Source of the DNA: Hyphobacterium sp. CCMP332
GTDB lineage: Bacteria; Bacteroidota; Bacteroidia; Cytophagales; CCMP332
Reading direction: 5' to 3'
NCBI GenBank assembly: GCA_014323545.1
Contig: CP058647.1
Location: 1,962,001-2,026,000, forward strand
Length of the DNA: 64,000 bases
How positions within the stretch are numbered: the first letter of the stretch is position 1; every line of letters begins with the position of its first letter. A program made the position numbers and the translations under genes. Positions 35,461 to 36,127 of the stretch are shown piece by piece. Below the pieces are notes generated by a model. The model saw only the letters and a program-made list of their open reading frames with translations, was not told the origin of the DNA and did not search any database.

Positions 35461-35491
35461 TTTGCCTCATATCAAAAAGGATTTACTTTTG
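35461..35491 (+). promoter_or_regulatory. promoter of tRNA-Val
   Basis: TTTG (35461-35464), 19 bases, then TACTTTTG (35484-35491). This is a perfect match to TTTG-N19-TAnnTTTG. It would give a leader of about 100 bases before the tRNA. Confidence 0.75.
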
Positions 35492-35519: not shown

Positions 35520-35562
35520 GGGCGCTTAGCCCTGAAGTAATTCACGATGTGAATCCTACAGG
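35520..35562 (+). other. structured leader with an 11-base copy of the tRNA 5' end
   Basis: GGGCGCTTAGC (35520-35530) is identical to the first 11 bases of the downstream tRNA-Val (35602-35612). It is followed by a hairpin: CCTG, a short bulge, ATTCAC, loop GAT, GTGAAT, a bulge, CAGG. The copy lies inside the predicted transcript. It may be a relic of a second tRNA or a processing element. Confidence 0.5.
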
Positions 35563-35601
35563 ACAAGCTCTCTGATTTGATCTTCTTTAAGACGATAAAA
35601 A

Positions 35602-35676
35602 GGGCGCTTAGCTCAGTTGGTTCAGAGCACTTGGTTTACACCCAAGGGGTCGGGGGTTCGAATCCCTCAGCGCCCA
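35602..35676 (+). tRNA. tRNA-Val (anticodon TAC)
   Basis: A 75-base cloverleaf that can be folded by eye: acceptor GGGCGCT/AGCGCCC, D stem GCTC/GAGC, anticodon stem CTTGG/CCAAG with loop TTTACAC (anticodon TAC, reading GTA valine codons). The T stem is GGGGG/CCCTC with one G-T pair and the TTCGAAT loop. The discriminator is A, and CCA is not encoded. A strong promoter lies upstream and a hairpin with a T-run directly downstream. Confidence 0.97.
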
Positions 35677-35688
35677 CTAAAGAATGCG

Positions 35689-35722
35689 AAATCCTCGCTT
35701 GCGTAGCAAGTGGGGATTTTTT
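35689..35722 (+). terminator. intrinsic terminator-like hairpin after tRNA-Val
   Basis: AAATCC...TCG CTTGC, loop GTA, GCAAG TGG GGATTT followed by six T. The stem is about 14 pairs with two wobbles. It is also a copy, in opposite orientation, of the hairpin repeats at 35759-35805 and 35877-35923. Confidence 0.6.
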
Positions 35723-35741
35723 GTTTACAAACAAGCCAAAA

Positions 35742-35986
35742 TTATTTGAGCGAAGGAGGTAAACAAAAAATCCCATAGTGCGATAGCACTAGAGGATTTC
35801 GCATTTAGACTTCGTTGGCGAAGAGGGATCGGCGACCCGAGTGGGGAGCCAATCCTAATTTATTTGAGCGAAGGAGGTAAACAAAAAATCCCATAGTGCG
35901 ATAGCACTAGAGGATTTCGCATTTAGACTTCGTCGGCGAAGAGGGATCGGCGACCCCGTATTTATTGCGGGGGAGCCAATCCTCAA
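35742..35986 (+). repeat. tandem pair of ~118-base hairpin-rich repeats
   Basis: Unit A starts at 35742 and unit B at 35860. The first 97 bases of each are identical but for one T/C difference (35816 in A). Each unit contains a hairpin with tip TAGTGCGATAGCACTA, a second hairpin CTTCG-loop-CGAAG, and a third palindrome between CGGCGA and GGAGCCAATCC. Only the third palindrome differs between the units. No open reading frame or transposase is present. Confidence 0.85.
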
Positions 35987-36072
35987 TCATGAAGGCCAAT
36001 TTGATTAGCTTTTGATTGGTTACAAGGGCCGAGTATTTAATTCGGCGATCCCGAATTTATTTCGAAGGAGCC

Positions 36073-36089
36073 AATCCCTCAGCGCCCAC
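36073..36089 (+). repeat. 17-base copy of the tRNA-Val 3' end
   Basis: AATCCCTCAGCGCCCAC is identical to 35661-35677, the 3' part of the tRNA T arm and acceptor plus two bases. The two copies are 412 bases apart and bracket the hairpin repeats, as a target or attachment duplication would. Confidence 0.8.
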
Positions 36090-36099
36090 AATCAAAAGC

Positions 36100-36125
36100 C
36101 TTGCAAGAAATTGCGAGATTTTTTT
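36100..36125 (+). terminator. intrinsic terminator beyond the second tRNA end
   Basis: CTTGCAA-GAAA-TTGCGAG forms a 7-pair stem with a GNRA-type loop, followed by A and seven T. It directly follows the 36073-36089 copy. It may be the ancestral tRNA-Val terminator displaced by an insertion. It ends just before the convergent Nudix gene. Confidence 0.65.
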
Positions 36126-36127
36126 GT

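Follow-up and report, generated by a model that had tools for sequence, protein, structure and literature searches.

Tyrosine-integrase elements can usually be recognized by a restored tRNA and a direct repeat of its 3' end, and the rtT repeats of E. coli tyrT lie behind their tRNA and each carry a piece of its 3' end. The known system nearest to the locus described here is phage SegB, a free-standing GIY-YIG homing endonuclease of T-even phages. According to the parts of the SegB literature used here, the enzyme is associated with tRNAs in phages, cuts inside tRNA genes at RAWTSGAAC, and drives the tandem amplification of tRNA together with truncated segB by microhomology (PMC13096335); in T4, segB lies between tRNA-Arg and tRNA-Ile and is under hairpin control, with a hairpin before the ORF (PMC2988022). 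RAWTSGAAC corresponds, in our reading, to the complementary strand of the T-loop consensus. A survey of the GIY-YIG superfamily mentions genes of the HEase cluster in mobile elements, and its passages on tRNAs and gene neighbourhoods contain no placement at tRNAs (PMC1564403). Partial tRNAs are also reported, in the portion of PMC9897764 used here, to arise from integrated elements. Chromosomal GIY-YIG genes flanked by tRNA halves are not described in the open-access literature that was searched, outside which most subscription papers lie.

The locus lies in a window of 64 kb, the whole stretch of DNA analysed, which belongs to a source genome of 3.33 Mb in a single contig. The intact tRNA-Val(TAC) gene (35602-35677, + strand; Aragorn, Rfam) is the sole gene with a TAC anticodon among the 33 tRNAs found in this genome. 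As stated in a preliminary description of this DNA, its last 17 bases are found a second time, without mismatch, at a distance of 412 bp downstream. This 3' fragment (36073-36089, + strand) starts in the T-loop, and its sequence, AATCCCTCAGCGCCCAC, occurs at only two places in the 64 kb (35661-35677 and 36073-36089) even when up to 3 mismatches are allowed, against 0.04 expected from shuffles. The match extends to 28 nt (36062-36089) at 82% identity; further extension into the anticodon and D arms is not significant, since 304 of 1000 shuffles score equally. An 11-nt copy of the opposite end, which the preliminary description overlooked together with its palindrome, is located upstream (35520-35530, + strand) and corresponds exactly to bases 1-11 of the tRNA at an offset of -82. 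The whole-region alignment score of this 5' fragment is weak alone (44 of 1000 shuffles are as high), but its junction is common to tRNA-Ala. Directly behind the fragment follows a palindromic insert, CCTGAAGTAATT..CAGGACAAG (35531-35567, + strand), and the 17-nt junction TTAGCCCTGAAGTAATT (35526-35542) is matched exactly only once more in the genome, where it belongs to a 5' fragment of tRNA-Ala; a second tRNA-Ala 5' fragment has 1 mismatch to it. The 3' piece of tRNA-Val, which begins in the T-loop behind a hairpin, resembles in this respect other copies with palindromes in their loops.

The non-coding spacer downstream of the tRNA is packed with hairpins, as the preliminary description had noticed: the 453 nt from 35678 fold as RNA with a z-score of -10.6, and none of 100 shuffles is as stable. 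Directly behind tRNA-Val lies a terminator, T1 (35688-35720, + strand). Two tandem hairpin units of 107 nt each follow (35732-35838 and 35850-35956, not assigned to a strand), which are 96% identical at a spacing of 118 nt and hold inverted copies of the T1 arms (35759-35805 and 35877-35923). Each unit contains a terminator on the - strand (35791-35776 and 35909-35894), and a NUDIX-like gene (own ORF reading) on this strand runs towards tRNA-Val. Two + strand hairpins of 36 nt, 86% identical, end in GAGCCAATCC (35947-35982 and 36042-36077), the second of them abutting the 3' fragment; within the array, GAGCCAATCC stands at 35846, 35973, and 36068. Behind the fragment, the intrinsic terminator T2 of the preliminary description was recovered (36100-36117, + strand, with a T tail to about 36125). 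The suggestion that it is the old terminator of the tRNA, pushed away by an insertion, is unsupported because T1, which had been missed along with the two - strand terminators, sits directly behind the tRNA; a displaced old terminator was rejected on these grounds. In six frames of the spacer (35678-36072), no GIY-YIG signal was detected, and only the tRNA reached the Rfam gathering score in the window, with no group I intron or other family. Likewise, no second copy of the 453-nt element is present in the genome, where the sole other match is the region against itself, inverted, and no copies of the whole element were found in phage records. The preliminary description would have taken a lack of further copies as evidence against an inserted element; the exact element is indeed confined to this locus, but kindred structures exist at other tRNAs. 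Behind tRNA-Val (35678-35812), the spacer can adopt a four-arm fold consisting of an outer stem, a terminator hairpin, a U-tract stem, and a third hairpin. A similar four-arm fold of unrelated sequence is found behind tRNA-Ser(TGA) and tRNA-Pro(TGG).

Each of the 33 tRNAs was compared with its own flanks (1200 nt per side, other tRNA genes masked, exact matches of at least 11), and with the flanks of the other 32 as a control (1056 swapped pairs). Pieces on the + strand occur upstream of 9/33 and downstream of 7/33 tRNAs, compared with 22/1056 and 25/1056 swapped pairs, respectively; matches on the - strand are restricted to the downstream side (3/33 versus 0/33 upstream). Terminal partial copies, found by this 11-mer test at 11/33 tRNAs, have a strict polarity. 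Pieces of the 5' end lie only upstream (Val, Pro-TGG, Arg-TCT, Asn, Ala, Pro-GGG, Leu-TAG, and Ser-TGA) and pieces of the 3' end only downstream (Met, Val, Thr-TGT, Leu-TAA, and Ser-TGA), and there are a few non-terminal matches (Lys, Arg-CCT, and Leu-TAA). The partial copies are often split by a palindrome. Of the 12 genome places of GAGCCAATCC, 6 belong to the arrays of hairpins that follow tRNA-Val, -Pro(TGG), and -Ser(TGA). The CCTGCC palindrome, CCTGCCTGCCGGCAGGCAGG, has only four genome places when up to 2 mismatches are allowed, three of them in partial copies of tRNA-Arg, -Leu, and -Ala and the fourth with no listed tRNA nearby; palindromic mobile repeats such as REP/RAYT would be expected in dispersed copies accompanied by a cognate transposase. 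Like tRNA-Val, tRNA-Ala(GGC) bears both kinds of piece: two 5' pieces precede it, and downstream lies a degenerate 3' piece that contains the CCTGCC palindrome. Upstream of tRNA-Pro(GGG) there are five tandem repeats of 100 nt, each with a copy of tRNA bases 1-12 and a hairpin that pairs back to this copy. The tandem units behind tRNA-Thr(TGT) combine a 3' copy in direct orientation with an inverted copy of the T arm.

A candidate partner was found in the gaps between such pieces and their tRNAs. The genome contains eight GIY-YIG ORFs, one of them in a UvrC-sized frame of 598 aa, and four of the seven small ones adjoin a tRNA; at tRNA-Arg(TCT) and tRNA-Ser(TGA), the ORF lies between the 5' piece and the tRNA. 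In this genome and its relatives combined, 21 of 55 small GIY-YIG loci hold a tRNA, the 55 including a few with weak GIY-YIG matches and one (L139) with none by HMM, compared with none of 17 UvrC-type loci, a control drawn from the large-frame loci. Frames longer than 260 aa and two weak matches of 237 aa in G010 are excluded from the set of the relatives. The ORF is on the strand of the tRNA in 20 of the 21 tRNA-holding loci and lies between the tRNA and its partial copy in 13; in the other 8, it is not between the tRNA and a detected copy. One of the 13 loci with the ORF in between is the tRNA-Val locus of the relative G020, where the tRNA is followed by a terminator, a GIY-YIG ORF, and then a 3' copy in which a palindrome replaces the anticodon arm; the AsmA-like neighbour was not seen there, and the correspondence to the window is thus one of the tRNA. 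Among 28 relatives with a tRNA-Val(TAC) locus, fragments are present in 5 and a nuclease gene in 1. Three tRNA-Val loci with the same AsmA-like neighbour as in the window (G002, G004, and G006) are bare and free of fragments, in keeping with the empty sites that the preliminary description had expected of an insertion. Therefore, the tRNA-Val site has been seen in all three states, bare in these genomes, ORF-bearing in G020, and ORF-less in the window.

Named genomes were scanned with a profile built from five tRNA-adjacent proteins; of the 561 relatives obtained, the best 80 were kept. A tRNA was found in 70 of these loci and within 600 nt in 69, always on the same strand (69/69), although a query biased towards tRNA-adjacent loci means that 69/80 is not an unbiased rate. 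With the same biased query, the ORF lies between the tRNA and a partial copy in 56 of the best 80. It is upstream of the tRNA in 55 and downstream in 14, and upstream-type proteins dominate because of the query. The hosts are mainly Bacteroidota, followed by Ignavibacteriota, several lineages of Patescibacteria, and others that include Omnitrophota, Verrucomicrobiota, and Elusimicrobiota. From 78 inserts in partial copies, 37 clean ones were obtained, in which at most one tRNA base is lost or doubled; some loci give several. A tRNA loop is the site of 29 of the 37 (21 in the D-, 5 in the T-, and 3 in the anticodon loop), whereas the null expectation is 43% (p = 1e-5, an optimistic value as the loci share lineages). 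A palindrome is supported by the shuffle test (p <= 0.05) in 22 of the 37 inserts, and seven are identical CCTGCCTGCCGGCAGGCAGG. Near-whole tRNA copies with CCTGCCTGCCGGCAGGCAGG in the D-loop were observed in Terrimonas sp. NS-102 (L158, with the ORF at tRNA-Arg) and Flavobacterium sp. SUN046 (L159).

The position of promoters relative to the pieces was analysed by means of the motif TAnnTTTG, which we take to be the Bacteroidota -7 element. At tRNA-Val, such a motif (TACTTTTG, 35484-35491, + strand) ends 28 nt before the 5' fragment and none occurs within 100 nt of the intact gene, and the window as a whole shows no enrichment of the motif as such (79 found versus 88 expected). Genome-wide, it ends within 60 nt before the tRNA in 16 of 25 cases without a 5' piece versus 0 of 8 with one (Fisher p = 0.003). 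The test relies mainly on the absence at the intact gene, because the motif is within 60 nt of the first 5' piece in only 2 of these 8. For two of the eight, Arg-TCT and Pro-TGG, the promoter may be that of tRNA-Ser, behind which they lie in a common cluster. In 24 nuclease loci of other genomes, hand-picked from the scan as upstream-type loci with a 5' copy starting at base 10 or earlier, the motif precedes the 5' copy in 13, compared with 3 in which it stands before the intact tRNA. This distribution fits an original tRNA start at the 5' piece, with the insert placed between the piece and the rebuilt gene.

Considering the anatomy and polarity of the pieces, the empty sites, and the nuclease genes at other tRNAs and at the tRNA-Val of a relative, the tRNA-Val locus is best read, with a probability of about 0.52, as the ORF-less relic of a homing-type element resident in tRNA genes, or as a non-autonomous form of such an element. 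Its kinship with such elements is based on anatomy and short shared motifs, because the locus has neither a GIY-YIG remnant nor a second copy. A full element would combine a small Slx1/UPF0213-like GIY-YIG ORF with a part of the target tRNA that serves as a replacement. Most probably, the nuclease would break a bare tRNA gene and repair would copy the element in, thereby stranding the original 5' end with its promoter, or the 3' end with its terminator, beyond the ORF as a partial copy. Judging from the anatomy, the carried tRNA part would rebuild an intact tRNA without splicing. The stranded copy is commonly interrupted, for the most part in a tRNA loop, by a GC-rich palindrome, which may shield the copy from re-cutting, prevent the formation of a second tRNA, or be mobile in its own right. 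Two layouts occur, one in the order promoter, 5' piece, ORF, and tRNA and the other in the order tRNA, ORF, 3' piece, and terminator. The window tRNA-Val would retain a short remnant of each, both without the ORF, and its 3' remnant would subsequently have been enlarged by tandem and inverted hairpin duplication. The host promoter or terminator would then serve the tRNA and the nuclease on one transcript, from which RNase P or 3' processing would free the tRNA. From this arrangement we infer cutting of tRNA genes, homing repair, and mobility, and for the window locus either a former ORF or movement in trans.

The main rival is plain local duplication, which appears possible but is the less probable reading. 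It would invoke tandem and inverted duplication without a mobile element at this locus, brought about by replication slippage and template switching at palindromes and with a single break located in the tRNA; selection would keep the tRNA and the extra copy would decay. A tandem duplication that ends inside a tRNA yields 5' pieces upstream and 3' pieces downstream, clean tandem units are in fact present at tRNA-Thr, -Met, and -Pro(GGG), and the window units are both tandem and inverted, with the 13 nt of TTTTTTGTTTACA common to T1 and T2. These 13 nt and the clean Thr and Met repeats count against the homing reading, as plain duplication gives such features too. Less readily explained by duplication are the hairpins of T1 and T2, which differ, the same palindrome behind the 5' piece at two different tRNAs, the recurrence of one palindrome in copies from different phyla, and the nuclease genes that occupy the same gap. 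Stable hairpin RNAs or bidirectional terminators under selection, in the manner of the rtT repeats, would account for the two + and two - strand terminators, the fold z-score of -10.6, and the recurrence of similar four-arm folds with different sequences behind tRNA-Val, -Ser(TGA), and -Pro(TGG). Like rtT, the window has repeats behind a tRNA with pieces of its 3' end, but 5' pieces, palindromes, and nuclease genes occur here as well and no Rfam family except tRNA was matched. An array of this kind would also leave the origin of the copies unexplained, and fragments are present in only 5 of the 28 relatives with the locus. It is therefore improbable that function as RNA is the key to the locus.

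Equally improbable is the scar of a tyrosine integrase, where integration at the 3' end would have duplicated a core of 17 bp, with most of the element lost since then. The usual mark of such elements is there, as the tRNA is restored and a direct repeat of its 3' end, 17 nt and exact, stands at both ends. The locus shares these features with the integrative elements at tRNA 3' ends covered in part of PMC9897764 but differs from them in being very short, in its 5' pieces upstream, and in that no integrase was seen. The latter agrees with the preliminary description, since none was recognized by eye among the ORFs of 31-41 kb; nor was an integrase-bearing relative met, the 28 tRNA-Val loci having been read for fragments and GIY-YIG ORFs only. 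Furthermore, 5' fragments lie upstream of eight tRNAs, and palindromes are found inside copies. A plain integrase scar was rejected on account of the 5' pieces and because no integrase was seen among the ORFs of 31-41 kb, and of the insertion envisaged in the preliminary description only the general part stands, namely that an insertion or duplication broke and restored the tRNA. If the locus had a partner, this was more likely a GIY-YIG nuclease than an integrase. Group I introns with homing endonucleases in tRNA genes (PMC3984707) similarly combine an embedded nuclease gene with little harm to the host. However, the intact tRNA-Val gene is uninterrupted (Aragorn, Rfam), no intron was matched in the window, and the tRNA would, on its anatomy, be rebuilt by a carried DNA copy.

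The homing-type element is thus compared most closely with SegB, which resembles the chromosomal family in being a GIY-YIG nuclease of a small genome beside tRNA genes (part of PMC13096335). In contrast, SegB is phage-borne, and palindrome-split partial tRNA halves are not among the features described in the parts of PMC13096335 and PMC2988022 used here. The chromosomal proteins are about 80 aa long and match UPF0213 and Slx1 structures by sequence. A nuclease ORF within the element, as expected of a SegB-like system, is found at the tRNA-Val of G020 and in two gaps of this genome but not in the spacer of the window locus, and empty target sites exist in relatives (G002, G004, and G006). The closest phage relatives of one family member, L086, are GIY-YIG proteins of Rhizobium phages at about 40% identity, and no SegB record is among the best 15 of 17 phage matches; the L149 protein is 100% identical, so that L149 repeats L086. 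Tentatively, these loci might constitute an undescribed class of elements in Bacteroidota, Patescibacteria, and others that combine a tiny Slx1-like GIY-YIG nuclease with a palindrome and half a tRNA gene, and that settle by means of a replacement half instead of splicing; hairpin-only members would be mobilised in trans by a nuclease encoded elsewhere in the genome. If so, homing nucleases would have a way to occupy essential RNA genes unharmed besides self-splicing and integrases, one that is common in bacterial chromosomes and would account for many of the stray tRNA fragments and arrays of hairpins that adjoin tRNA genes. It would also supply a group of very small nucleases specific for tRNA genes, testable at once, and raise the question of why palindromes so frequently interrupt the displaced copy within a loop.

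A phylogenetic tree, weakly resolved, was calculated from 87 proteins (69 from the scan and 18 of the 21 from the relatives' loci, without L136, L138, and L141). On this tree, the tRNA isotype changes 40 times compared with a mean of 53.5 in shuffles, none of 200 being as low, whereas phylum, for the 64 proteins with a named one, changes 24 times compared with 23.8. For the ORF-bearing family, and as far as a weakly resolved tree allows, this is the pattern expected of nuclease lineages that stay with one tRNA target while passing from host to host, although part of the scatter of phyla could stem from contaminated metagenome bins. Two or three GIY-YIG ORFs in tandem, with a 3' copy of the tRNA behind every ORF, are located behind tRNA-Leu or tRNA-Thr in G035 (L143 and L144) and G002 (L121). 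Three small GIY-YIG genes of the source genome (L077, L081, and L082) lie away from tRNAs and have, by eye, repeated palindromic sequences on their flanks, and G034 carries eight tRNA-Val(TAC) genes in tandem.
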